A stretch of 64,000 bases of DNA from Rhodoplanes sp. Z2-YC6860. GTDB lineage: Bacteria > Pseudomonadota > Alphaproteobacteria > Rhizobiales > Xanthobacteraceae. Within the stretch, counting starts at the first letter, position 1; each line of letters starts with the position of its first letter. The position numbers and the translations under genes were made by a program. This document shows positions 21,673 through 58,951 of this stretch, piece after piece. The notes under the pieces are model-generated. The model made no database searches. It had not been told where the DNA came from and saw only the letters and a program-made list of their open reading frames with translations. The stretch lies in assembly GCF_001579845.1 (NCBI RefSeq), contig NZ_CP007440.1, forward strand, positions 6,532,029 through 6,596,028, written 5' to 3'.

Positions 21673-21761
21673 CGCAATAATCGCGACCGCAGCGGCAGGA
21701 AAATTAGACCTGCCGGATCGCACAGCCATCCAATAGTTCAAGGCCCTGCGTCTCACCCTGG

Positions 21762-22193
21762 TCAACCGCAGTCGCGCCCATAAGCGCCCATGTTGCGAGC
21801 GACCATGGCAACGGTGGCATCCATCTGCCGCTTCGCTCCACGGGGATAGCGAAACTCAATAAGATTCCACCGTGAACCTCGGCAGGCCAAGTTGCCCTTC
21901 CGGTAGTAGATCTCTTCACCTCGGTATCCCGAGACGACGAACCATGACTCCCCGCCATCCTGGTAAGTGACCCGTTCACCCGGTCGGTGGATGTACCGGT
22001 CTGGGCTTTGCGCCGGCTCGTGACCGAAACGGATGCGTGCCGAGCCATCCGGCGAGACGAAGACGCGGCCCGTGTTACCTGCTGATCGAACCTGATGCCA
22101 CCCAGGTGGCACTATTTGCGGCGAGGCTGCCATAGCACCCGCACTAATCACGGTGGTCGCAGCCACGAGAATAAGGGCACGAAAGATCAGCAT
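21762..22193 (-). CDS. Exported hypothetical protein, 143 aa (copy 1)
   Basis: A signal peptide (MLIFRALILVAATTVISAGA ... MAA) is followed by VSPDGSARIRFGHEP, GERVTYQDGGESWFVVSGYR and KRQMDATVAMVARNMGAYGR. The conserved Gly-Asp/Glu, YYRKGN and terminal DCG are typical of a Bradyrhizobium exported family of unknown role. The twin at 29884-30315 differs at only a few residues (for example RNMG/RQMG). Related proteins: 8975-9559 and the fragment at 3146-3229. Confidence 0.75.
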   Translation of the reverse strand: MLIFRALILVAATTVISAGAMAASPQIVPPGWHQVRSAGNTGRVFVSPDGSARIRFGHEPAQSPDRYIHRPGERVTYQDGGESWFVVSGYRGEEIYYRKGNLACRGSRWNLIEFRYPRGAKRQMDATVAMVARNMGAYGRDCG

Positions 22194-22328
22194 ACGTGCC
22201 CAACGAACTTGGACCGAGTAAGTTGCTCAGCCGCCAGAAAAGCCGTCGAGGTGTCTGCCGACCAGGAACGACAGCCGGGCAGCGGCATTTATCATGCGGA
22301 TCGCGTTTCGTGTATGGGTGGCACCGTC

Positions 22329-22592
22329 ATGAACACAGAGGAAACTCATAGGCTTAAGGCCACTGAGATCCGGCGTCAGGCGCGCGCAGAGGGAAACGCC
22401 TCGACTCGTCTTGAGCTTGAGCTTTTGGCGCTTTCCTTTGACCGGCTAGCCGATCAGGCAAAACGCAACGCTCAGAACAACATTGTTTACGAATACAATC
22501 CGGAGACAACTGCCGAGCACCGCCAGAGGAAGCGCCTACTGGCCCAGAGACAGCAGCAACAGCAACCACAGCCGCGAAAGCGACATCGGTGA
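22329..22592 (+). CDS. Small helical Gln-rich protein, 87 aa (copy 1)
   Basis: Starts MNTEETHRLKATEIRRQARA, followed by a helix LELELLALSFDRLADQAKRN and a poly-Gln/basic tail (QRQQQQQPQPRKRHR). It appears cytosolic and mostly helical. The protein in copy 2 (30451-30714) is identical. It is transcribed divergently from the exported protein gene. Function unknown. Confidence 0.7.
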   Translation: MNTEETHRLKATEIRRQARAEGNASTRLELELLALSFDRLADQAKRNAQNNIVYEYNPETTAEHRQRKRLLAQRQQQQQPQPRKRHR

Positions 22593-22852
22593 TACCAAGC
22601 GCATCTGGCCCGGGGACGGAGTCAGGACAAAGCGAGCCTGAATTCGGAAGGCCGCTCAGTAGCGAGGATATCTAGCAATACCTCTCAAGGGTCAAACATC
22701 GCGTGCTTGCCGGCAAAGGACACACAAGGTTCGACTTGGCGTTCGAGTTCAAGGCGGGTTAATAGGCGTGCCGGCCAGCAAAGCCGAGTTTGCACTCGAC
22801 TGGCACCTCCTCTAAATGGCAAGCCCGCGGTGACCGGGGTGGCTACGCTGGT

Positions 22853-28952: not shown

Positions 28953-29858
28953 ATGCAGAACGCCAAGGGTTCCGACGGGACCACTTTTCGGTCCGTATTG
29001 CGCCCTTTGGTCGGCGCTTTGTTCTCAAGTGTGCTGTTGGTTGTCAGCGCGCCGGTTTGGTCGCAGGAGCAACCGGTTGTTGAGCAAACAGCTGCGGCGA
29101 AGCCCAAGCCTGTCGCCGAGGCCACCCACGGTAGACCGGCGGACAAACCATATTACATCGAGTTCCGTGCGCGTAACGCCGACAGCTACGGACATACGTT
29201 CTCCATTTATGGAAAGGTCAACGCCAACGGCAAGGTTGGAAACTTCACCGTCGCCGGCTTGCATCCGATTTCGGAAAGCCCGTTGCCATGGATGATCGGG
29301 CACCTCGTCGTGGTGCCGTCGGAAACGGGAGCCAGTGATGGCGATACCGACGATCAGTATGTTCTGGCGCGTTTCCACGTGGCGTTGTCCGCCGAAGAGT
29401 TCAAAAAGGTTGTAGCGTACGTTAAGCAGCATCAGAAGAATTCCCCGATGTGGCACGCGGTCCTCTACAATTGCAACGCCTGGGTTGGCGACGTTGCCAA
29501 GTTCATGGGAATGGACACCCCCTCGTCACCACTGTTGATGCCGGCTGACTACATTGAGAGCCTGAAAAAACTCAACATGGGTAGGATCGGCATCATCGGC
29601 ACCCCCGTCGAGGTGGCGACGCCGGCGCAGTTGCGTCAAGCCAGACTGAAAGCTATTGCAGCGCAGGGCAGAAAATCTGCTGACGGGCCTGCTAAGAGCG
29701 CCGAGCACCCAGATGCTAAGGCACAAGGCGACAAGCCCCTACGGGAGAAGTCGTCAATGGCGAGGCCTCGAGACACAAAGCCACAAGCGGTCAAGCAACA
29801 AGCGTCCGCGACCGCAGCGGGAAAATTAGACCTGCCAGATCGCACAGCCGTCCAATAG
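28953..29858 (+). CDS. Exported protein with conserved NCN motif (paralogue 2)
   Basis: GAGGTTCAGG precedes the ATG at 28953, favouring it over 28935. After a signal peptide (VGALFSSVLLVVSAPVWSQ) the core reads YYIEFRARNADSYGHTFSIY, GLHPISESPLPWMIGHLVVV, FHVALSAEEFKKVV and AVLYNCNAWVGDVAKFMG, paralogous to 27657-28256. The last 100 residues are a Lys/Ala/Gln-rich tail. The final codons (KLDLPDRTAVQ) are inside duplication copy 2, and reappear as an orphan tail in copy 1. Confidence 0.65.
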   Translation: MQNAKGSDGTTFRSVLRPLVGALFSSVLLVVSAPVWSQEQPVVEQTAAAKPKPVAEATHGRPADKPYYIEFRARNADSYGHTFSIYGKVNANGKVGNFTVAGLHPISESPLPWMIGHLVVVPSETGASDGDTDDQYVLARFHVALSAEEFKKVVAYVKQHQKNSPMWHAVLYNCNAWVGDVAKFMGMDTPSSPLLMPADYIESLKKLNMGRIGIIGTPVEVATPAQLRQARLKAIAAQGRKSADGPAKSAEHPDAKAQGDKPLREKSSMARPRDTKPQAVKQQASATAAGKLDLPDRTAVQ

Positions 29859-29883
29859 TTCAAGGCCCTGCGTCTTACCCTGG

Positions 29884-30315
29884 TCAACCGCAGTCGCGCC
29901 CATACGCGCCCATCTGGCGAGCGACCATGGCAACGGTGGCATCCATCTGCCGCTTCGCTTCACGGGGATAGCGAAACTCAATGAGATTCCACCGTGAACC
30001 TCGGCAGGCCAAGTTGCCCTTCCGGTAGTAGATCTCTTCACCTCGGTATCCCGAGACGACGAACCATGACTCCCCGCCATCCTGGTAAGTGACCCGTTCA
30101 CCCGGTCGGTGGATGTACCGGTCTGGGCTTTGCGCCGGCTCGTGACCGAAACGGATGCGTGCCGAGCCATCCGGCGAGACGAAGACGCGGCCCGTGTTAC
30201 CTGCTGATCGAACCTGATGCCACCCAGGTGGCACTATTTGCGGCGAGGCTGCCATAGCACCCGCACTAATCACGGTGGTCGCAGCCACGAGAATAAGGGC
30301 ACGAAAGATCAGCAT
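29884..30315 (-). CDS. Exported hypothetical protein, 143 aa (copy 2)
   Basis: Same protein as 21762-22193 with a few differences (YPREAKRQ in place of YPRGAKRQ; VARQMG in place of VARNMG). Signal peptide and FVSPDGSAR core are intact in both copies, so both could be functional. Convergent with the NCN paralogue 2 gene. Confidence 0.75.
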   Translation of the reverse strand: MLIFRALILVAATTVISAGAMAASPQIVPPGWHQVRSAGNTGRVFVSPDGSARIRFGHEPAQSPDRYIHRPGERVTYQDGGESWFVVSGYRGEEIYYRKGNLACRGSRWNLIEFRYPREAKRQMDATVAMVARQMGAYGRDCG

Positions 30316-30450
30316 ACGTGCCCAACGAACTTGGACCGAGTAAGTTGCTCAGCCGCCAGAAAAGCCGTCGAGGTGTCTGCCGACCAGGAACGACAGCCGG
30401 GCAGCGGCATTTATCATGCGGATCGCGTTTCGTGTATGGGTGGCACCGTC

Positions 30451-30714
30451 ATGAACACAGAGGAAACTCATAGGCTTAAGGCCACTGAGATCCGGCGTCA
30501 GGCGCGCGCAGAGGGAAACGCCTCGACTCGTCTTGAGCTTGAGCTTTTGGCGCTTTCCTTTGACCGGCTAGCCGATCAGGCAAAACGCAACGCTCAGAAC
30601 AACATTGTTTACGAATACAATCCGGAGACAACTGCCGAGCACCGCCAGAGGAAGCGCCTACTGGCCCAGAGACAGCAGCAACAGCAACCACAGCCGCGAA
30701 AGCGACATCGGTGA
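30451..30714 (+). CDS. Small helical Gln-rich protein, 87 aa (copy 2)
   Basis: Encodes a protein identical to that at 22329-22592. Two identical copies 8 kb apart point to a very recent duplication or continuing gene conversion. Confidence 0.7.
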   Translation: MNTEETHRLKATEIRRQARAEGNASTRLELELLALSFDRLADQAKRNAQNNIVYEYNPETTAEHRQRKRLLAQRQQQQQPQPRKRHR

Positions 30715-30849
30715 TACCAGGCGCATCTGGCCAGCGACGGAGTCCGGTCAAAGCGAGGAGCCTGAATTCGGAACGCGCTCAGCAGCGAGGAGACCTAGCA
30801 AGACTTCTCAAGGGTCAAACATCGCGTGCTTGCCGGCAAAGGACACACA

Positions 30850-31408
30850 GTCTCGCCCTAACCGGCAGGGCTCATCAATCGTGTGTCGAGTTCTCCGAGG
30901 CCCTAAAGGGACGTCCGACCTTGGGAAGCCCTAGATCACGACACACCAGAACCTCGTCACGCATACCGCGGGTTTTGTTTGCGGAACCAGAACCTGATAC
31001 CGCCCTTGCTTCTGTGTCGATCCCCAGACCGACGGTGACGGCCTCCACCCAATCCCAGCCTCCCCCGGCTCAGGTGGGGGCCGATCATTTCTGCTTAGCC
31101 GCGAAAATCTGCAAAGAACGTCCTCCACTTATCAACCAGATGTGGAGGTCTTTTTCTCGTCGGTATGTCCGAAAGTGCTCGCAACAAGTTTTCATCGGGA
31201 ATGTTCATCAGGTGGCAGCTTCGGCTGCCGCGGTAGACGGCCCTCACAGCCCCCAACTCCCCCGGGGGCCGTCACATCTTGGCAGCCAGCCCCCGTTCGC
31301 TCCGAGAGACCTCACCTTCCATGGGCGAGGTCCCCTTGTTAGATGCGGAAGTCATCCTTCTTCAGCTGACAGGGCGCTTCGAAGCTTCTAATCTCAGCAA
31401 GGGGCAGC
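30850..31408. other. No convincing gene; possible hairpin terminator near 31115-31155
   Basis: About 560 bases. CCTCCAC / GTGGAGG with a 13-nt loop followed by TCTTTTT (around 31115-31155, plus strand) looks like a terminator, though no gene is clearly upstream. A second GC-rich hairpin (GACGGCCC ... GGGCCGTC, around 31238-31274) follows. A small RNA is conceivable but not supported by a known family. Confidence 0.35.
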
Positions 31409-32206
31409 ATGGGGCGGCACAGCACACGAATAAGGGATCTGTGGCGTAGCTTGCGCTTCTCAGCGCTGCGTCGCGTTCCGCCCCTATATTTCGCTTGGCT
31501 ATGCTGGGAAGAGGCGCGGTTGCGGTCGGCCAAGAACGGTGGGGGCGAGCGGTCCCTTCGGCAGCCGACCCTGCAAGACCGCGAATATGAGAGCCTTGAT
31601 AGCTTACGTCGCTACACGATCGTCGATGGAAGCAAGATTGCGATGGTCACGCGCCGGCAAGAGCGCCTCTGTTGGCTCGAGCCTGTATTTAACTCAATCG
31701 ATCAGCTACTCTGCTCGCGCGATCGCATAAGCGTCCACGAGGTGGGTTGCGGAAGCACGATCAATCTAAGGCTGCTCCGCGACAAATACGGTAATCGGGT
31801 GACGCTGTCGGGGTCAGATGTGGCGCCGGTTCAATCGAGTGAGTTCGATGTGCTGCGGGTGTCATTCGATGACCCGGCATATGTCCCCGAACACGCGTTT
31901 GACATCGTTTTCAGCAACACAGCGCTCTGTCTTTCCAAAAACCCGAACGTTGCGTTCAGAAACGTGCTCGCCTTATCGCACGATGTCGTCGTGCTGGTAG
32001 AGCCTATCGAGCATCTTGCCATGCAACATCAAAAGATGTTTCTCCGGCGAGCGGGACACTCTGCGTCGTGGGATGAGTTGGCAGCGGCAGATAGCTCAAA
32101 TGCGATTGTGGCAACAGGTCGCTGTCGATTGCCGTTTTCAATCAAGCATCCGGCAGCATTCATCACATTGCGGAAGCGGGATCGACTTACGAAGTCAGAA
32201 CGCTAA
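31409..32206 (+). CDS. SAM-dependent methyltransferase-like protein
   Basis: AAGGGGCAGC precedes the ATG. The 265-aa protein has an N-terminal basic helix, then a class I methyltransferase core: motif I ISVHEVGCGSTINLRLLRDK, an acidic strand LSGSDVAP, motif FDIVFSNTALCLSKNP, and VVVLVEPIEH. The SAM-binding glycine loop VGCGS is present. Substrate unknown. It stands alone. Confidence 0.75.
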   Translation: MGRHSTRIRDLWRSLRFSALRRVPPLYFAWLCWEEARLRSAKNGGGERSLRQPTLQDREYESLDSLRRYTIVDGSKIAMVTRRQERLCWLEPVFNSIDQLLCSRDRISVHEVGCGSTINLRLLRDKYGNRVTLSGSDVAPVQSSEFDVLRVSFDDPAYVPEHAFDIVFSNTALCLSKNPNVAFRNVLALSHDVVVLVEPIEHLAMQHQKMFLRRAGHSASWDELAAADSSNAIVATGRCRLPFSIKHPAAFITLRKRDRLTKSER

Positions 32207-32411
32207 GCGCGCATTCCGTTGCTGACCAAACCTATATGCCGCAGCAATCCCGCCGTAACCGCCTCCGGGGATAAGAGGAAGAATCGTTGCCGAGCCGGCC
32301 TTGGCATTTGCGTCAATCGACTTCCCGTCAGGAGTCTTTTTCGTCGAACAATCTGTCACGTGACGGTCGGAAACCGGACGAGCGTGCACCGTATTTCTTT
32401 CCCGGGCCGCG

Positions 32412-32588
32412 CTAGCCTGGAAAGTAGGGTGCCTGCTTGAGATTCGGCGGGAAGAGCGCTCCCGCCCTCGCTTCGTCAAGAGCGCGCTCGATGTAGTATT
32501 CAAGTGCCCCCTCTCCTAAGTCATTCGCCAGCATGTGCGCCGTTTCCAGCAGGCTAATGATCTTCTGAAATTGATCGTTCTCGGCCAT
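32412..32588 (-). CDS. Small hypothetical protein, 58 aa (LLxTAxMLANDL family)
   Basis: Starts MAENDQFQKIISLLETAHML followed by ANDLGEGALEYYIERALDEA; CAGGTGGCAGG lies upstream. It is paralogous to the 52-aa protein at 2518-2676 (shared SLL-x-TA-x-MLANDL core and an acidic AL-x-EA helix). The family is probably cytosolic and helical. Function unknown. Confidence 0.65.
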   Translation of the reverse strand: MAENDQFQKIISLLETAHMLANDLGEGALEYYIERALDEARAGALFPPNLKQAPYFPG

Positions 32589-32693
32589 CCTGCCACCTGT
32601 TCGCTACGACCGTCCCGTGGTCCATCGCAATGGATTCAAATCTGCTGTTTGAATGATACGCAAAATTCTGCCTGTCTCCAGCAACATGTTTCT

Positions 32694-34274
32694 ATGTCAA
32701 TCTATCGCGTCGAGACCGGGGGCTACGACCCCGAAGCCAGCACGCAAGCAGTATCACGCATCCGCGCCGCGGAGTATGTCCGCATGTCGACGGATCATCA
32801 GAGATATTCGATAGATAACCAATCCAATGCCATTCGAAGCTACGCAGACCGGCGGGGAATGGAGATCGTGCGGACTTATACCGACGCTGGGCGCAGCGGC
32901 CTCAATATCAGTGGGCGTACAGGCTTGCAGCAGTTGCTTGCTGACGTTCGGTCCGGAGCAGCCGACTACTCTGTTATCCTTGTCTATGACATTAGCCGGT
33001 GGGGCCGTTTTCAGGATTCAGACGAGCCTGCGGCTTACGAATATGCATGCCGAGTAATGGGCGTCCACGTCGCTTACTGCGCCGAGCAGTTCGAGAACGA
33101 TGGAAGCATAGGCTCCGACATCCAAAAAGTGGTCAAACGGCGTATGGCCGCCGAGTTCAGCCGCGAACTGTCGGTCAAGGTTTTCAGCGGTCAGGCCCGT
33201 CTTATCGAACTCGGGTATCGTCAAGGCGGTCAGCCGGGGCTTGGCCTGCGGCGGCAACTCTTCGACGAGACTGGCGCAGCGAAAGGCGAACTTGCCTTTA
33301 AACAGAAAAAGAGCATCCAGACCGACAGGGTCGTGCTCGTTCTAGGCCCGACGAAAGAACGCGCCATCGTCCGGAGCATATACAACGATTTTGTGAACAG
33401 AGGTTTGAACGAAGGGGAGATCGCGGCGCGTCTCAACGAGCGCGGCGTCCTGAACGGCAGCGGAAGGGCATGGGAACGCGGCGCCGTGCATAATATTTTG
33501 ACCAACGAAAAATACATCGGCAACAACGTATGGAACCGCGGATCGTCCAAACTCCGACAGCGCCGTGTACGAAACACCCCCAACCTTTGGATTAGGGCGG
33601 AGGGCGCGTTTCCAGCGATCGTCGAACGGTCCTTGTTCGATACCGCGCAGGACATGATTCGCGCGCGATCGCATCGGATGACCGATGACGAACTCTTGCA
33701 AACGCTTCGCAATATCCTCCATAGCCGGGGGCGTCTTTCGGAACCGATCATTAACGCCACTCTGCAAGGGCCTTCTACCGGTACATACAGACGCCGGTTC
33801 GGCTCACTACTCCGCGCCTACCAACTCATCGGCTATTCGCGCGAATGCGACTATCTCCCTGTCACGAGAAAACGGTTCCTCCAGCGCTTCCGTCCGAAGG
33901 TGGTTGAGCAAGTCATTGAGGGCATCGAGCGAGTCGGAGGCAAGGTTACGCTAGGCGGTTCTAATCGGCTGCTGGTCAATGGAGAATTTTCAGTGTCGAT
34001 CGTGGTGGTGCGCTGTCGCACGTACCCCGGAGGCTCCATGCGATGGATGATCCGGCTTGATCGCAGCGTCCTCTCGGACGTGACGATTGCTGTCCGGATG
34101 AACCATCTCAACAGCGCGGCGCGCGACTATCTCATTCTACCGACCGCGAACATCGACAGCGATGTCATGCGCGTGGCCGATTACAACGGTATCGCGCTCG
34201 ACGGTTATCGATTCGACTCTCTTGATCCGTTCTTCGAGATGGCTGGGCGCGTCCATTTGAAAGATGTGGCGTGA
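32694..34274 (+). CDS. Large serine recombinase
   Basis: A 526-aa recombinase. The catalytic domain has AAEYVRMSTDHQRYSIDNQS (nucleophile Ser32) and VYDISRWGRFQDSDEPAAYE. A Recombinase domain follows (ERAIVRSIYNDFVNRGLNEG; GRAWERGAVHNILTNEKYIG). The last 200 residues are specific to this subfamily and lack an obvious zinc ribbon. Such enzymes integrate or excise DNA between unequal sites. The stop overlaps the next ATG (TGATG), and the pattern repeats at the third gene, so all three form one transcript. No clear ribosome binding site at the start. Confidence 0.88.
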   Translation: MSIYRVETGGYDPEASTQAVSRIRAAEYVRMSTDHQRYSIDNQSNAIRSYADRRGMEIVRTYTDAGRSGLNISGRTGLQQLLADVRSGAADYSVILVYDISRWGRFQDSDEPAAYEYACRVMGVHVAYCAEQFENDGSIGSDIQKVVKRRMAAEFSRELSVKVFSGQARLIELGYRQGGQPGLGLRRQLFDETGAAKGELAFKQKKSIQTDRVVLVLGPTKERAIVRSIYNDFVNRGLNEGEIAARLNERGVLNGSGRAWERGAVHNILTNEKYIGNNVWNRGSSKLRQRRVRNTPNLWIRAEGAFPAIVERSLFDTAQDMIRARSHRMTDDELLQTLRNILHSRGRLSEPIINATLQGPSTGTYRRRFGSLLRAYQLIGYSRECDYLPVTRKRFLQRFRPKVVEQVIEGIERVGGKVTLGGSNRLLVNGEFSVSIVVVRCRTYPGGSMRWMIRLDRSVLSDVTIAVRMNHLNSAARDYLILPTANIDSDVMRVADYNGIALDGYRFDSLDPFFEMAGRVHLKDVA

Positions 34275-34534
34275 TGTCGGGAAAAGCCGGCGGTGTCGTT
34301 CGCCATTTTCGAAAAAACAAGAGAGTTACGGTTGCAGAAGCCTATCGCGAGGCTACCGAGCGCAAGCGGCTTTTGATCCGTAACGCGGGTGAGACACACA
34401 ACCGGCTGACGTTCATCGCGCATGCCATGCGTGAGTTGCTCAGAGACGATAAATTCATCTTGCTTCTGATGACCGAAAACTTGGACACCATCCCGCGGAA
34501 ACTGGCGGCCCGTATGGAACGAACGGGGGCTTGA
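34274..34534 (+). CDS. Small helical protein, middle gene of the recombinase module
   Basis: An 86-aa basic helical protein (MSGKAGGVVRHFRKNKRVTV, AEAYREATERKRLLIRNAGE, FIAHAMRELLRDDKFILLLM, TIPRKLAARMERTGA). It is coupled by TGATG overlaps on both sides. Not a known domain to me; the helices and the position suggest a partner of the recombinase or of the RepB-C-like protein. Confidence 0.7.
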   Translation: MSGKAGGVVRHFRKNKRVTVAEAYREATERKRLLIRNAGETHNRLTFIAHAMRELLRDDKFILLLMTENLDTIPRKLAARMERTGA

Positions 34535-35046
34535 TGGCGAAAAAATCGAAGCCCCGGCCCGTGATAAAGGCGTTTCAGCACAGGCGGGTAAACATAAAAC
34601 GCCGCACGCTAAGCCTCTGCCCCGAAGCGGTCGAGTTACTTAAAAGCAGATATGTGTCCCGCTACGCATTCGCTGAGCTGAAAAAAATGCTGCCGGCACG
34701 GCAGATCGAGGCGGCGCAATTGATGATCGCGATGAACGAATTTTCGGTCGGCTTCGCGAGGTTGCTCGTGAGTGCCACACCCTGCGATCGACTTGTGGAA
34801 CTCAAAAAACCCAAGTACGTCGCGAGACTCGCGCTCAAGCAGATCGCGAGAATGGAGCAAGAATCCACCAATCTGGATCACCAAGTCTGCCTCATAGCAC
34901 AATCTTATGGAGATGATCATCTCGATCTGGTGGTCGTGGTCGGTTACGTCTTGCGGCTACTCGAAAACGCGCGTGTGGTGCGGTTTCTTGCGCAGAATTA
35001 TTCCGAACTACTCTCTGAGTTTCAGAAAATCGCAGAATCTCATTAG
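34534..35046 (+). CDS. RepB C-terminal-domain-like protein
   Basis: A 170-aa protein with a basic N-terminus (MAKKSKPRPVIKAFQHRRVN). The middle (AFAELKKMLPARQIEAAQLM, IAMNEFSVGFARLLVSATP, DRLVELKKPKYVARLALKQI) and the end (LDLVVVVGYVLRLLENARVV, RFLAQNYSELLSEFQKI) follow the pattern of the C-terminal domain of rhizobial plasmid-partition protein RepB. The ParB-type nuclease/DNA-binding half is missing. In a recombinase operon it could bind DNA ends or direct the element, but that is inference. Confidence 0.65.
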   Translation: MAKKSKPRPVIKAFQHRRVNIKRRTLSLCPEAVELLKSRYVSRYAFAELKKMLPARQIEAAQLMIAMNEFSVGFARLLVSATPCDRLVELKKPKYVARLALKQIARMEQESTNLDHQVCLIAQSYGDDHLDLVVVVGYVLRLLENARVVRFLAQNYSELLSEFQKIAESH

Positions 35047-35665
35047 GCAACGACTTAGCGCGCTAGCACACGGTTGGAACTAGCCAACACGCTACGGTAT
35101 TTTCCCACTGGCACTCGACCAACAGACGCCCTCCCACGCATTTGACACAAACTCGGCAAATTTCTGTACCGAATGAAACCAACGTTCGTTCGATTCTCCC
35201 GACATCGTTCAGAACTGCATCGAGAGTTGGTTGGGGACGGCAGTGCTGCGTGCGTTTAGGCCATTTTGGAAGATATTGACGGCCGTCTGTTCTGCGACAA
35301 ACCGTACGCCACAGAAGATCGCCGCTCGTACCACCACGCCAAAACGAAGACGCACGCTAGTGCGGATGCGCAAGCCGGTAACGGAAATAGCACTTGGCAA
35401 AATTTCGCAAACGAGATGATGCTGTTTAGTCGCAATCTAGCTGATTGCTCAGCTGGCGAACTCCATGTCTGCGCGCAGCATTCGAGGGCGAGGCGACGGC
35501 CCTGAAATTGTAGAATATTATTTTTATCCGGGGCGCGGCCGCCGAGAAAAATTTCCTGGGAGACCCGGGTGGCGCCAGCCACAAAAAATATTTCCTACCA
35601 CTTGCCTATGATGCGATTCAGCATCACAGAGGATCTGGCTCTTCCTTTTTTGTATGGAGGAGTCC
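35047..35665. other. No convincing gene
   Basis: Two opposing frames around 35209-35505 have no ribosome binding site or recognisable motif. Right-hand end of any element carrying the recombinase operon could lie here, but I could not find matching direct or inverted ends. Confidence 0.35.
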
Positions 35666-35836
35666 ATGACCATCGATCCTAAATCTTCTACGACTTGGCG
35701 CGATCGGCTGCAGGTGTTCGCACAGATGGCCGCGATTGGTTCATTCGCTGCCGCACTGATCATCGCCAGCCTTGCAATAGCAAACTACCGGAGACTTCCG
35801 ACGGAGGCCCCTTCTCCTGTGTCGCGAAGCCCGTGA
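35666..35836 (+). CDS. Small single-pass membrane protein, 56 aa
   Basis: GGAGGAGTCC precedes the ATG at 35666. The product has a polar start (MTIDPKSSTTWRDRLQVFAQ), one membrane segment (MAAIGSFAAALIIASLAIAN) and a short Pro-rich tail. Function unknown. Confidence 0.6.
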   Translation: MTIDPKSSTTWRDRLQVFAQMAAIGSFAAALIIASLAIANYRRLPTEAPSPVSRSP

Positions 35837-36429
35837 GACAGAAGAGTGGGTCCTGCGATTTGCGTCAGTTACGACGGGGCTACGCCTACCGTACTAGATA
35901 GGCCGGGTGTGCCGAGCTTGGAAACCCCGGAACTGGCGCTCCCAAAACTGTGCCGAGACGGGTAGTGGCCGGGCGAAGATGTGCGTAAAGTGGAGAATGT
36001 TGGATCCCAGTTCCTCTCCCTCCGCCAGCCGGCCCCGGCGAGATATTCTCCGCTGCGAGAGGAGCCCGGAGAAAGCCCACGTTTATCGGCTTTTCAAGGA
36101 AGACCTCCGCACTTTCCATCTCGCAGACAGCCCGGAATTCTCTCTCTTGGCCCGATTGTCTCTGAAGCTCCGCACTTCGGCGTTTAGTGCGGAATTCAGT
36201 TGAGGCCCAATTTTGCTGGCCTTCAGAAGCTAAGCGGCCTCCGAGTTGGAATGAGCGGATCGGCCGAGCGAGGACCGCAAAAACCGTCGACGAGGTCTAC
36301 GTCGGGTAAAAGCAGACATGGCCGCAACGGGTAGGGATATCGGCCTATGACTCAAGGCCGACATCGGGGGGACCTTCCAAGGTGTCCTTTTGAGCAGCTA
36401 CGATGCCGTCTTAAACGATGAGGCGCGGA
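35837..36429. other. Decayed or non-coding stretch with a dispersed repeat
   Basis: No supported gene. It contains one copy of a 48-bp repeat (35979-36026) also found at 53583-53631, and is bounded on the right by a truncated transporter gene. The composition suggests an old integration site or a deletion scar. Confidence 0.4.
35979..36026 (+). repeat. Dispersed 48-bp repeat, copy 1
   Basis: Begins tgtgcgtaaagtggagaatg and ends gttcctctccctccgcca. It matches 53583-53631 with about seven differences and one 1-base gap, same orientation. The right end (GTTC-x-TCTCCCTCCGCCA) resembles the T-arm plus acceptor end of a tRNA such as tRNA-Ser, which is a common trace of integration; this reading is tentative. 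Confidence 0.65.
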
Positions 36430-36726
36430 ATGAGGCGGCGAGAACTACTGGGCCTTATTATCGGTGGTGCTGTGGCGTGGCCCTCATGCACGTTTGCACA
36501 GCCGCCCACACAGCCGGTCATCGGCTTCCTGCATAGCGGCTCACCCGGCCCCACGTCGAACTACGTGACTGCATTCCGTGCAGGCCTTGGCGAGACCGGG
36601 TTCATCGCAGGTGGCAACGTGGCCATGGAGCATCTCTGGGCAGAAGACCAGTTCGATCGTCTCCCCGCATTAGCCAAAGAACTTGTCCAGCACAAAGTCT
36701 CACTAATACGCGCTCGATGTCTTTAG
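36430..36726 (+). pseudogene. Truncated ABC transporter substrate-binding protein (ABC_sub_bind type)
   Basis: The start MRRRELLGLIIGGAVAWPSC is the Tat-like signal of this family; PVIGFLHSGSPGPTSNYVTA, FRAGLGETGFIAGGNVAMEH and DRLPALAKELVQHKVSLI follow, matching the first third of a 320-330 aa protein. The match stops near residue 95 and the frame ends soon after. No membrane or ATPase partner is adjacent. Confidence 0.8.
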
Positions 36727-36905
36727 CGACGCCTATGAGGAGCGGCAATCACGATTGAGATAGGATCGCTAGCTGGAAAAGTCTCCTCGAGAGCCTCATC
36801 GAGACGACGCTCCAACTCGGCATACGTGTTAGAATGATCAGCCGATGACACGGTCTCCTCCGTACGATGTTTCCAGGAGCTCTCAGATTTTGCGAATGTA
36901 GTCAT
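36723..36905 (-). CDS. Small hypothetical protein, 60 aa
   Basis: ACAGGACTAAATT precedes the ATG. The C-terminal half ELERRLDEALEETFPASDPI (then SIVIAAP) is a motif (LDE-x-LE-x-TFPASDP-x-S) that recurs in short proteobacterial proteins of unknown function. The 3' end touches the truncated transporter gene. Confidence 0.65.
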   Translation of the reverse strand: MTTFAKSESSWKHRTEETVSSADHSNTYAELERRLDEALEETFPASDPISIVIAAPHRRR

Positions 36906-37023
36906 AATTTAGTCCTGTCTTTCCGGTCTGCAGCTGAAGGACCGTGTTAGAAAACGCGCAGCCACCCCCAACCGTTCGGTGTGCTCCTGCGATACCCTCG
37001 CCGCATGGGCCGGCCGATCCCAT

Positions 37024-37446
37024 TTAATCCGGCTGGGGTTGCGGAATTAACAGGACGGTCAATTGGCGCACCTCACCGTTCGGGGTTTCCCAGGTGATAG
37101 AGGAATCCTCTTCAAGTCCGATGAGTGCTGTTCCAACTGGCGTTAAAACCGACACCTTCCGTTGTAAGATGTCTGCGTGCTCGGGATAAACGAGCGTCAC
37201 CCGCTGGATCTTACCCGTGGTGTCATCACGGAACTCCACCTCGCTGTTCATGCACACGACGTGCTGTGGGTGCTCGCCCTTGGCCAGCACGCGGGCGCGC
37301 CCGACCTCGTCAGCAAGCTCATCCGCCAGATCTGGCATCTGTTTTCGAGCCGCATGCGCGAGAACCGACAGCCGCTCGTAGTCATCAGCTGACAGTACAA
37401 TGGACGGCTTAACTCGATGTGGCGACGTCGTGTTCTCAATGGACAT
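37024..37446 (-). CDS. rnk: Nucleoside diphosphate kinase regulator / GreA-GreB family protein (Rnk-like)
   Basis: GGAGGCAAAA precedes the ATG at 37446. The 140-aa protein has an N-terminal coiled region (IVLSADDYERLSVLAHAARK, DLADELADEVGRARVL) and the GreA/B C-terminal FKBP-like fold: VVCMNSEVEFRDDTTGKIQR, VTLVYPEHAD, SVLTPVGTALIGLEEDSSI and TWETPNGEVRQLTVL. Rnk binds RNA polymerase and influences NDP kinase and alginate or polyphosphate traits in other bacteria. The acidic tip of true GreA is not present at this short coiled coil. Confidence 0.88.
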   Translation of the reverse strand: MSIENTTSPHRVKPSIVLSADDYERLSVLAHAARKQMPDLADELADEVGRARVLAKGEHPQHVVCMNSEVEFRDDTTGKIQRVTLVYPEHADILQRKVSVLTPVGTALIGLEEDSSITWETPNGEVRQLTVLLIPQPQPD

Positions 37447-37875
37447 TTTTGCCTCCAACTGTTCGCCGCGTTTACGCGGCGGAGGGACCTGGATCGTCAT
37501 CGTGATCGTCTACATCGTCTCAGTTCACGGGAGCCTGCTCGATCTTCTGGGGGCGCCTCGGCAGGAACGGGCGCACGTTTGTCGGTTCGCGATTCATTTC
37601 CTTCACTGGCTCATGGAGCGACATACGGTCTTCCTGTATACGGTCTTGCAAAAGCTACGGGAGCAGCCGGAGACGCTGCTTGTTGAGTCACAGCGCTCGC
37701 CCGAATCGCTATCGGAAAAGCTGCCAACTCGATTTTGTGGTGGTCCCCGAGCTCGCGCGAATGCGCGCCAAACTCGGGGCTAATTGCCCGCGATCAGATT
37801 ACCGGCACGAAAAAGGCCGCGTTGGAATGTCGCAAAGCTCAACATCCGTCAAATGTAAGCATTGAATCGCAAGTT
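37447..37875. other. No convincing gene
   Basis: Open frames on both strands lack ribosome binding sites and domain signatures. Separates rnk from the PTS-IIA operon, so rnk likely has its own promoter here. Confidence 0.4.
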
Positions 37876-38379
37876 TCAATCGGCGCTTTGTCGCACTGGG
37901 CTCCTGCCGCTTGCCGCGAGATCTTGAGTCTCCTCGTAACCGCACAGTACGGCGTATATCGAGTCACGGCTTTCCGCGCCGCGGAGAAGCTTCCGCACGT
38001 GAACGTCTCGCAGCGTGCGCGCGACGCAAGCAAGCGCCTGCAAATGCCCCCTGGGATTATCCAGCGGACTGAGAAGCAACGCCACCAGATCCGTCTTGGA
38101 GCCGTCGGTGGAGCCGAAATCGACCGGCGGATTCAGCTTGGCGAAGATCACGAAAGGATCGCCAAGGCCGGGTATGAAGGCGTGAGGCAGAGATATGCCG
38201 GTGCCTGGGCCAAAGGCAGGCATTTCGGCCCCATCGAGCACCGCGCTTACGACGAGGTCTGCTGGCGTCGCACTGTTGGTGGCGGCAACTGCAGCGAGTT
38301 TGCGAAGTGCATCACTCTTGTCGGCCGCGTAGAGGTTCGGAATGACCCGCTCGATGCTCAGCAGATTCCGCATCTTCAT
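37876..38379 (-). CDS. PTS IIA domain protein (PtsN/fructose type)
   Basis: A 167-aa protein: MKMRNLLSIERVIPNLYAAD and KSDALRKLAAVAA at the start, then FGPGTGISLPHAFIPGLGDP with the phosphorylatable His in LPHA, and LVALLLSPLDNPRGHLQALA toward the end. This is the EIIA(Ntr/Fru) fold; PtsN-type proteins regulate nitrogen, potassium or stress functions rather than transport. No other PTS gene is nearby. The location beside a Na+/K+-antiporter operon fits potassium-related regulation, but that is inference. Last gene of a three-gene minus-strand unit. Confidence 0.8.
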   Translation of the reverse strand: MKMRNLLSIERVIPNLYAADKSDALRKLAAVAATNSATPADLVVSAVLDGAEMPAFGPGTGISLPHAFIPGLGDPFVIFAKLNPPVDFGSTDGSKTDLVALLLSPLDNPRGHLQALACVARTLRDVHVRKLLRGAESRDSIYAVLCGYEETQDLAASGRSPVRQSAD

Positions 38380-38392
38380 CTTCGTATTCCTA

Positions 38393-38617
38393 TCAATCTG
38401 CGAGCACCTTTTGTCGCACGTGCGCGGCAAATTCGCTTCTGCTCAGCTGCGTGCCGTCTTCTCCCTCGATCGAGATGACGGTCGTTCCGTGTCGTACGAC
38501 GGCGCGCGCCCAAAGCAGCGCCTCATCTAAAGTGGCGAACTGATTGTTGGGCCATTGGTCTTTTTCCATAGGTGGAACGGCTGCGCCGCCCCCGCCGCCG
38601 TAGTAGGCTCGGTACAT
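38393..38617 (-). CDS. Small hypothetical protein, 74 aa
   Basis: GGAGGTTGAT precedes the ATG at 38617. The protein begins MYRAYYGGGGGAAVPPMEKD and continues with FATLDEALLWARAVVRHGTT, VISIEGEDGTQLSRSEFAAH. The C-terminal half resembles short domains found in rhizobial proteins of unknown function. 13 nt upstream of the PTS IIA gene, 11 nt after the small membrane-protein gene. Confidence 0.7.
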   Translation of the reverse strand: MYRAYYGGGGGAAVPPMEKDQWPNNQFATLDEALLWARAVVRHGTTVISIEGEDGTQLSRSEFAAHVRQKVLAD

Positions 38618-38628
38618 ATCAACCTCCA

Positions 38629-38760
38629 TTATCGTTCGTCTCGTGTTGCGGAGCGCGCCCGGGCTACAGCCACTCTGGCCTCGCGAAAACCGTCGGGATC
38701 GCAGAACCAGATGAATGCCAGCCACACCGCGATGACCGTAACCGTTCCAATTAGCAACAT
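38629..38760 (-). CDS. Small membrane protein, 43 aa
   Basis: GGAGGAACCA is placed ideally before the ATG at 38760. The product MLLIGTVTVIAVWLAFIWFC is one membrane segment, followed by a basic tail (DPDGFREARVAVARARSATR). First gene of a unit leading to the 74-aa protein and the PTS IIA protein; it is divergent from phaA with about 290 nt between. Confidence 0.65.
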   Translation of the reverse strand: MLLIGTVTVIAVWLAFIWFCDPDGFREARVAVARARSATRDER

Positions 38761-39052
38761 TGGTTCCTCCAATTGGCGCTCATGACGCGCTGAACCCCGC
38801 CGTGAGGTATCACGGCGCGGTGAATGCTCAAATTGTAAGTTGGGACCCGGACGGCTAAGCCGGCCGGGTTACTGGCCAGCGCGCAGGAGGCCGGCGCGTA
38901 GCTGCGATCGTTGAGCCTTCGTCATCATACCTGGGACGTAAGCGCCAAAGTTCCTGAGTCAAGCGGGGCATTGCGCCACAGGATTTGCTGCGCCGCAGGA
39001 CGGGTTGAGATTACCATGCCACAATGTAAGTCCTCCCAACGCGGTGCAGCGA

Positions 39053-57535: not shown

Positions 57536-57808
57536 ATGTCAGACTCGACTGCACAGGGTGGCAATACTCGGCTCGGTTTGACGCCGCGTCTGCTGACGCG
57601 GCCTCAGGCTGCGACGTATTGTGGCCTCTCGCCGACGGGGTTCTCGATGTGGATTAAGCAAGGCCGACTGCCTGGACCGATCGCCGGCACCAGCCGATGG
57701 GACTTGAAAGCAATCGACGCGGCGCTCGACGCGCTGAGCAATCTTCAGCCTAGTAGCCCCGACTCAGCACTCGATACGTGGAAATCGAATCGTGCGCGTG
57801 CATCTTAA
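57536..57808 (+). CDS. AlpA/excisionase-like helix-turn-helix protein
   Basis: A 90-aa protein with LTPRLLTRPQAATYCGLSPT followed by GFSMWIKQGRLPGPI and SRWDLKAIDAALDAL, the winged helix of AlpA/Xis-type recombination directionality factors. The C-terminal 25 residues are polar. It overlaps the integrase start by 17 nt, so the two are transcribed together and probably control integration versus excision. Confidence 0.82.
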   Translation: MSDSTAQGGNTRLGLTPRLLTRPQAATYCGLSPTGFSMWIKQGRLPGPIAGTSRWDLKAIDAALDALSNLQPSSPDSALDTWKSNRARAS

Positions 57809-58814
57809 AGGCATTCATTGCGTTGAGATGAAGCTCGCGACCGGGGCGACGCGTATCTATTACTACGCGTGGCGTGGCGGTCCACGCATCACGGCTCTGC
57901 CTGGGACGCCAGACTTTGTCCGCCAGTATCAGGAGGCGCACGCTGATCTTCGTGCGCCGGCGGCCGGCACCTTCATGACGTTGATCGCAGCGTTCAAGGG
58001 ATCGGCCGACTACCTGAAGCTTGCATCCTCCACCGTTCGAGCCTACGCCGCCTATATCAAGCTCATCGAAGAAGAGTTCGGTGATTTGCCCTTGGCCGCG
58101 TTGAAGGACCCGCGTGTCCGTGGCGAGTTCAAAGCTTGGCGCGATCGTTTCGCCAACACGCCGCGCAAGGCAGACTATGCGTGGTCAACACTGTCTCGCA
58201 TCCTCTCGTTCAGCAAAGATCGTGGTTTGATCAGCTCCAACCCCTGCGAAGGCGGCGGCCGCCTGTACGCCGCAAACCGCACGGACAAGATTTGGCAAGA
58301 CACGGACGTCGCCGCGCTTCTCGGGGTGGCGCCGCCTGAACTGGCGCTCGCAATGATGCTCGCCCTCTGGACCGGCCAGCGCCAGGGCGATCTCTTGCGG
58401 CTGCCGTGGTCGGCTTACGACGGCAAGCACATTCGCCTGACCCAGTCGAAGACCGGCCGGCGCATTGTTGTGCCCGCCGGCCAGCCGCTGCGAACTCTTC
58501 TGGACAGAACCGAGCGGCGCGGACCGCTCGTGCTGACAACCACCCGAGGGCGGCCGTGGACGTCCGATGGGTTTCGGACGTCGTGGGGTAAGGCTTGCGA
58601 CCGCGCCGGCATCCGGGGCCTCACCTTCCACGATATTCGCGGGTCGGCGGTGGTGCGGCTCGCACTGGCGGACGCCACCGTGCCGCAGATCGCGACGTTC
58701 ACCGGACACAGCTTGAGGGACGTCGAGGCGATCCTCGACGCTCACTATCTTGGCCGTGACGTGCAGCTCGCCGAGATCGCGGTGATGAAGCTCGAAGCGC
58801 GAACAAAACTGTAA
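57792..58814 (+). CDS. Tyrosine site-specific integrase
   Basis: A 340-aa integrase with a GTG start. The core-binding domain (about residues 60-150) precedes the catalytic domain, where all active-site residues can be placed: Arg197 (WTGQRQGDLLRLPW), Lys220 (QSKTGRRIVV), His280-x-x-Arg283 (FHDIRGSA), His306 (FTGHSLRD) and the nucleophile Tyr319 (DAHYLGRD). It points at the 3' end of the tRNA-Lys gene 61 nt away, the usual arrangement for an island integrated at a tRNA. Confidence 0.93.
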   Translation: MRVHLKGIHCVEMKLATGATRIYYYAWRGGPRITALPGTPDFVRQYQEAHADLRAPAAGTFMTLIAAFKGSADYLKLASSTVRAYAAYIKLIEEEFGDLPLAALKDPRVRGEFKAWRDRFANTPRKADYAWSTLSRILSFSKDRGLISSNPCEGGGRLYAANRTDKIWQDTDVAALLGVAPPELALAMMLALWTGQRQGDLLRLPWSAYDGKHIRLTQSKTGRRIVVPAGQPLRTLLDRTERRGPLVLTTTRGRPWTSDGFRTSWGKACDRAGIRGLTFHDIRGSAVVRLALADATVPQIATFTGHSLRDVEAILDAHYLGRDVQLAEIAVMKLEARTKL

Positions 58815-58875
58815 AACGGGCTGTAAAACGTGCCCGGTTTGTCCAACCCGTGATCGGCTAAGTGATTGATTGGAT

Positions 58876-58951
<76 letters not shown>

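Follow-up and report, generated by a model that had tools for sequence, protein, structure and literature searches.

The three-gene locus

Three intact genes lie in a row on the + strand of the window, the 64,000-nt stretch of the Rhodoplanes sp. Z2-YC6860 genome analysed here: a large serine recombinase (LSR) gene (32694..34274, 526 aa) followed by genes for an 86-aa protein (34274..34534) and a 170-aa protein (34534..35046). Consecutive genes share a single base, each junction reading TGATG, at 34272..34276 for the recombinase stop and 86-aa start and at 34532..34536 for the 86-aa stop and 170-aa start. These overlaps had been described in a first-pass annotation made from the sequence alone, and its proposal that the three genes are coupled is borne out. 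TGATG junctions are also present in full-length relatives of the locus, between the first two genes in L046 and between the last two in L044, indicating that the overlaps and the coupling in the window were inherited. The other junction of L044 reads TAATG, and ATGA overlaps occur at other loci such as L003.

The LSR is over 400 aa in length and comprises a resolvase catalytic domain (PF00239, 4e-20, residues 25-158), a recombinase domain (PF07508, 3.9e-22, residues 221-324) and a long C-terminal region; profile comparison with solved LSR structures gives matches confined to the catalytic or the recombinase domain. The YVRMST motif is unchanged across 11 aligned LSRs, and we take the serine of this region to be the catalytic residue. 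The two nearest relatives are 64-70% identical to the window LSR and the other LSRs compared that are of the operon type described below 51-60%. The closest, L046/L131 (one locus, 70%), is interrupted after about residue 255 of its second gene product by a frame that looks by eye like a transposase; the other is L044/L132 (64%), of which L132 is an Afipia record.

The 170-aa protein matches the RepB family (PF07506, 6.5e-30), with residues 17-163 aligned to profile positions 40-185 of 185, and Pfam finds no ParB_N domain in it. The first-pass annotation had predicted this family and read the protein as the C-terminal half of RepB lacking its ParB part, a reading with which the Pfam result agrees. 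The 86-aa protein has no Pfam match at all. In L044 it aligns at 63% identity over 65 aa to the C-terminus of a second ParB/RepB paralogue, ParB-A, and from this alignment we conclude that it is the C-terminal piece of that protein. Its earlier description as a small helical protein was accurate as far as it went, the predicted structure being all-helical with one long and two short helices (pLDDT 87, pTM 0.56), and was incomplete in that the protein is a ParB-A remnant. The model of the 170-aa protein is also helical, with low confidence for the first 17 residues (pLDDT 80, pTM 0.45). A fold search with this model returned nothing significant, the best match having an E-value of 0.38 and Spo0J/ParB entries E-values of 2-9.

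The full-length operon and an associated structured element

In its full-length form the locus is an operon of an LSR gene followed by genes for ParB-A and ParB-B (each ~298 aa), usually together with a divergent HTH-like gene. The same Rhodoplanes genome carries a second copy of this kind at C1:671458-674757, encoding an LSR (55% identical to that of the window), a 298-aa protein and a ~300-aa protein; the C-terminus of its ParB-A matches the 86-aa protein and that of its ParB-B the 170-aa protein. Full-length ParB-A matches both ParB_N (PF02195, 6.5e-9, above cut-off) and RepB (9.7e-25), and we presume that its GQGR and EN..R stretches resemble CTP motifs. Full-length ParB-B matches RepB at 5.5e-48, with a ParB_N match below cut-off (9.1e-4).

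Adjacent matches to ParB-A and ParB-B were found in 24 of 25 further loci of the family, three of which are damaged or partial (L072, L076, L087); the exception, L083, lies at an edge and has ParB-B only. When 84,980 species genomes were scanned, at least 587 stretches encoding an LSR relative were obtained, and the best 80 of these were kept. A ParB-B frame lies directly downstream of the LSR in 73 of these best 80 loci, three of the 73 frames being cut or split (L134, L147, L176). The remaining seven comprise five in which the contig ends less than 1 kb away, the broken L131 and the truncated L177. By record title, the recombinase with two ParB-like partners is spread over Alpha- and Betaproteobacteria and is also present in an Acidithiobacillus record. 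Relatives of the 170-aa protein were matched in 38 of 391 Xanthobacteraceae genomes and, at class level, in 23 of 385 genomes (E<=1e-10), and relatives of the 86-aa protein at order level in 24 of 397; no relative of the 170-aa protein turned up in a scan of viral contigs. On plasmids the LSR was matched in 62 records at E<=1e-40, 28 of them typed conjugative, and the full ParB pair is present in 12 of 12 plasmid records examined, where the genes are mostly annotated as a 'recombinase family protein' and two 'RepB C-terminal domain-containing' proteins. In this respect the first-pass proposal was right, since such a recombinase is found with RepB-like partners in many genomes. More distant LSRs (38-44% identical: L052-L056, L058) have no adjoining ParB match, so the pair is confined to a single LSR branch.

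The divergent HTH-like gene formed a cluster in 57 of 95 module loci, near-duplicates among them. The Pfam HTH matches of one copy fall slightly under cut-off, and some plasmid records annotate the gene as DeoR family. In the window its place is taken by a 27-codon frame (32604..32687, - strand) that begins MLLETG, the usual start being MLPKKG, and the rest of the gene is absent; the 34-bp block holding the start of this frame is 82% identical to L044 and L046. No other neighbour family occurs in more than 10 of the 95 loci, except for a family seen in 27 loci, which overlaps ParB-B in antisense; this count is of the 60 largest clusters, unannotated, and covers RepA/RepC or an ATPase only as recurring clusters. 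A fixed cargo gene was considered but not supported, as the neighbouring genes vary among loci. PADLOC was given 106 of the 319 candidates near operons and 106 of the 188 far from them, and the models of defence-type families matched at least once numbered 121 in the near set and 65 in the far set; these figures count models rather than genes, and enrichment is therefore not claimed. Six proteins of the module itself gave only weak PADLOC matches, the best at 5e-4 to a methyltransferase model.

A full-text search of the literature, within its open-access part, returned no description of an operon of an LSR and two ParB proteins, in keeping with the earlier suggestion that a system of this type had not been described functionally. 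In the portion of one prophage survey available to us, most serine recombinases of Paracoccus prophages fall in one cluster without known integration sites (PMC6536676). The operon appears, as far as we could find, to be widespread yet undescribed.

An element of ~115 nt follows ParB-B in 58 of the 95 module loci, a count that includes incomplete copies and the copy that an insertion has displaced in L179; several of the 37 loci without it end before its expected place. In all but four loci that have it, the start of the element falls within a span from 3 bp ahead of the ParB-B stop to 38 bp beyond it; example copies (model R1) are L045:5122-5235, L003:7302-7415(-) and L140:13339-13452. Across 47 sequences a structure of 24 pairs forms in 98.8% of cells, and nine pairs change on both sides. 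The covariation score of 0.214, which is favoured by the derivation of the structure from the same 47 sequences, compares with 0.095 after shuffling, none of 500 shuffles reaching 0.214, and with at most 0.099 when the structure is slid. The L045 copy, searched against Rfam at E<=10, scored no higher than 15.1 bits with any family, the gathering score being 70, and six loci searched at Rfam gathering scores gave no match. Under strict genome-wide filters the element was found in 4 of 200 relatives, in five copies, four of them at the operon. Among 14 operon genomes, picked as 11 known to have the element and three without, the same 11 were matched. Matching genomes nearly always hold one copy, and three hold two. 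On this evidence the element probably represents an RNA not yet described, or else a DNA site that folds, and is linked to the operon.

The possibility that the element is an integron-like cassette site was not supported: operon genes adjoin it in 17 of the 25 viral contigs that have it; six of the other eight contigs are cut within 0.5 kb, and L254 and L256 are not cut. Copies away from the operon are mostly damaged, as in L236 (5' end lost behind an IS3-like frame), L256 and the second copy of L239; that of L254 appears whole. In Ruegeria conchae (L140:13338-18513), two copies of the element on the same strand, the second degraded, flank frames of 1162 aa and 291 aa. The window has no profile match to the element anywhere, the best score at 31000-39000 being 9.5 bits. 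L044 and L132 also lack it, so its absence from the window need not reflect decay.

State of the window copy and its genomic setting

Relative to L044, ParB-A of the window retains its start codon and about its last 70 residues. ParB-B retains its start codon and ~16 N-terminal residues (MAKKSKPRPVIKAFQ / MSRKLEKRPVAMAFE) and then resumes, fused in frame, at about residue 140 with the RepB C-terminal domain. Both deletions are in frame. By Pfam and alignment to L044, the 86-aa protein is without ParB_N, the HTH and the linker, and the 170-aa protein without ParB_N and the greater part of the HTH region. Alignment thus indicates that the window trio is a reduced derivative of the conserved LSR-ParB-A-ParB-B operon. 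The first-pass idea that the compact trio is itself a module conserved in other genomes was abandoned: every other copy examined is full-length, damaged or cut by a contig end, and relatives with short frames (L072, L076, L083, L297, L298, L299) proved to be decayed, frameshifted, fragments or cut. This comparison set aside the short matches in G231, G189, G642 and G576 and judged most class- and order-level matches by open-frame length alone.

The reduced copy might be a relict: once captured by the tRNA-Lys island described below, the operon would have begun to decay, and the trio would be functionless, its in-frame deletions having survived by chance. The chance of both deletions falling in frame is ~1 in 9, which is not rare. 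Decayed copies of the operon are common (L046, L072, L076, L134, L181, L187, L297-L299), and the window has also lost the divergent HTH-like gene and has no compact counterpart among the loci examined. Of 190 LSR alignment columns that at least 90% of 64 other loci conserve, 168 are kept in the window and 180 in L044 (22 vs 10 lost). Against decay, the three frames and their overlaps are preserved, and the pieces retain conserved positions, 10 of 10 in ParB-A and 19 of 21 in ParB-B (21 in L044). The ratio of third-position to first- plus second-position differences between the window and L044 is 1.38 for the LSR, 1.33 for ParB-A and 1.08 for ParB-B, so the third-position bias is mostly retained. 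For the ParB-B piece compared with L003 the ratio is weaker, at 0.91, vs 1.26 for the L044-L003 pair. The kept columns and the third-position ratios together indicate constraint on all three genes. By these measures the two pieces seem to be under roughly the same constraint as the LSR; the extra LSR losses and the lower ParB-B ratio fit some relaxation of selection, which may affect the ParB-B piece. A functionless relict is a strong contender that we place just short of an even chance, and the question of whether the reduced copy still functions or is a relict stands about evenly balanced.

The trio lies in the interior of a larger element. In the stretch 57792-58951 a tyrosine integrase (57792..58814, + strand; PF00589, 3.4e-14) abuts a tRNA-Lys whose 3' end (58874..58922) forms the right copy of an att-like repeat of 49 bp (96%, same strand), the left copy lying ~106 kb away at G000:C1:6484945-6484993. 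The resulting ~106-kb island takes in the window from position 1 as far as ~58900, with its Mrp-type antiporter genes, and the trio is ~24 kb from its right end. A place at an element end, for which the first-pass annotation proposed a check, did not hold, since the island ends go with the tyrosine integrase; the trio LSR is not the island's integrase. Another serine recombinase match (G000:C1:6489859-6490281(-); 35%, LSR residues 19-158) lies close to the island's left end. Separately, a direct duplication of ~1 kb (97%) occupies window positions 29807-30849 and 21682-22726 (G000:C1:6553710-6554754).

No empty site or att pair was established for the window LSR, and no reaction was found: apart from matches in the LSR and some short repeats, none of 40 relatives matched the surrounding DNA (up to ~39 kb) over any long stretch. 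A 38-bp repeat at 35990-36028 was considered as an att site but is not supported, having several copies in this genome and occurring also in relatives, including G018, a genome without a match to the 170-aa protein. ARAGORN predicts no tRNA at this repeat, and one guessed motif returned nothing. Dispersed copies of 35-38 bp lie in the window at 35990-36028 and ~53597 and at G000:C1 positions 675399, 699520, 702147, 1487117, 2304836 and 6531137; those in G018, which belongs to another genus, are near-identical.

Between pairs of operon loci, the limits of shared DNA often fall at the HTH stop and at the end of the structured element. Pair identity is 72-97%, so these limits may mark the end of constraint, and we do not call them element ends. 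Another explanation would make the LSR the integrase of an island of its own, with the ParB pair controlling excision and modules near tRNA 3' ends marking island ends. G230:C12:3171-13050 and G034:C2:1482851-1492730, from one genus, share 9.9 kb at 96% that includes the operon and further genes; the left break is 266 bp beyond the HTH stop, and in G230 a tRNA-like 3' sequence, recognised by eye, lies directly there. A similar tRNA-like 3' end follows ParB-B in L174 (by eye), and a tRNA-Met lies upstream in L180, L200 and L203. ARAGORN, however, is silent at the G230 and L174 sequences, and none of the 14 tRNAs that it predicts in the 95 module loci comes closer than 1 kb to where the LSR starts or ParB-B stops. 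To the right of the 9.9-kb stretch in G230 is a gene that by eye is IS-like, an empty site was not demonstrated, and the island ends in the window belong with the tyrosine integrase. An island integrase under ParB control is a tentative explanation and a rather unlikely one.

Possible roles and comparison with known systems

The reading that we favour, and regard as moderately probable, is that the window holds a reduced operon in which an LSR is served by a ParB pair as DNA-bound partners and from which the DNA-binding halves of that pair have been deleted. Its steps are proposed by comparison with serine integrases that work with directionality factors. The parent LSR would be a cut-and-rejoin enzyme of islands and plasmids, and ParB-A and ParB-B, made from the same message, would act as its DNA-bound partners. 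The N-terminal half of each partner (ParB_N and HTH) would bind DNA, and the C-terminal helical domain would touch the recombinase or the other ParB. Together the pair may set the timing or direction of the LSR, much as a recombination directionality factor does. In the window, the two in-frame internal deletions would then have stripped the DNA-binding halves and left the LSR with two C-terminal domains. As neither an att site nor a reaction was found for the LSR, the partner role of the ParB proteins rests on analogy.

A stabilisation or partition cassette, with the ParB pair responsible for partition of the element and the LSR for resolving multimers, is quite improbable: it would suit the plasmid records, all those examined holding the full pair, and the RepB domains of ParB-A and ParB-B, but the operon also occurs on chromosome-size contigs, as in Rhodoplanes sp. 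Z2-YC6860, no widely recurring neighbour besides the HTH-like gene was seen among the unannotated clusters of the 95 loci, the window copy lacks the DNA-binding halves, and an LSR would be an unusual enzyme for resolving multimers.

If ParB partners do steer the LSR as we propose, this would be a new mode of serine integrase control, and serine integrases are widely used genome tools. The window copy then indicates a protein domain to examine for LSR control. The structured element beside many copies raises the possible participation of an RNA or folded DNA site. A fuller version, which would make the operon recombination machinery of a new type, in which the LSR is governed by a ParB-type clamp pair, often with the structured RNA or DNA site, and in which the window copy, as a natural domain dissection, shows that the LSR needs no more of its ParB partners than their C-terminal domains, is speculative, and we consider it unlikely as a whole.

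The closest functional parallels would be the phage-type large serine integrases that work with a recombination directionality factor, such as phiC31 Int with gp3 and SPbeta YokA with YotN. These share the catalytic and recombinase domains with the LSR studied here, and a co-made partner acting as direction switch is a plausible further likeness; unlike in those systems, the partners here are two ParB/RepB proteins encoded in the LSR operon. RepB of repABC has the PF07506 domain in common with both parent partners and the 170-aa protein, whereas here the partner is a recombinase and the window protein is without ParB_N. With Noc and Spo0J, the likeness lies in the weak match of ParB-B to Noc (7ol9, 9e-4) and in the above-cut-off ParB_N match of ParB-A; the proteins described here differ in being encoded beside an LSR. 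Among NCBIfam models the LSR scores best against the SCC recombinase CcrB (E 1.2e-20, residues 20-322), but at 73.7 bits vs 900 the match is below the CcrB cut-off, CcrA and CcrC score lower still, and no Ccr pair is seen; the pairing found in this operon is that of one LSR with two ParB/RepB proteins.
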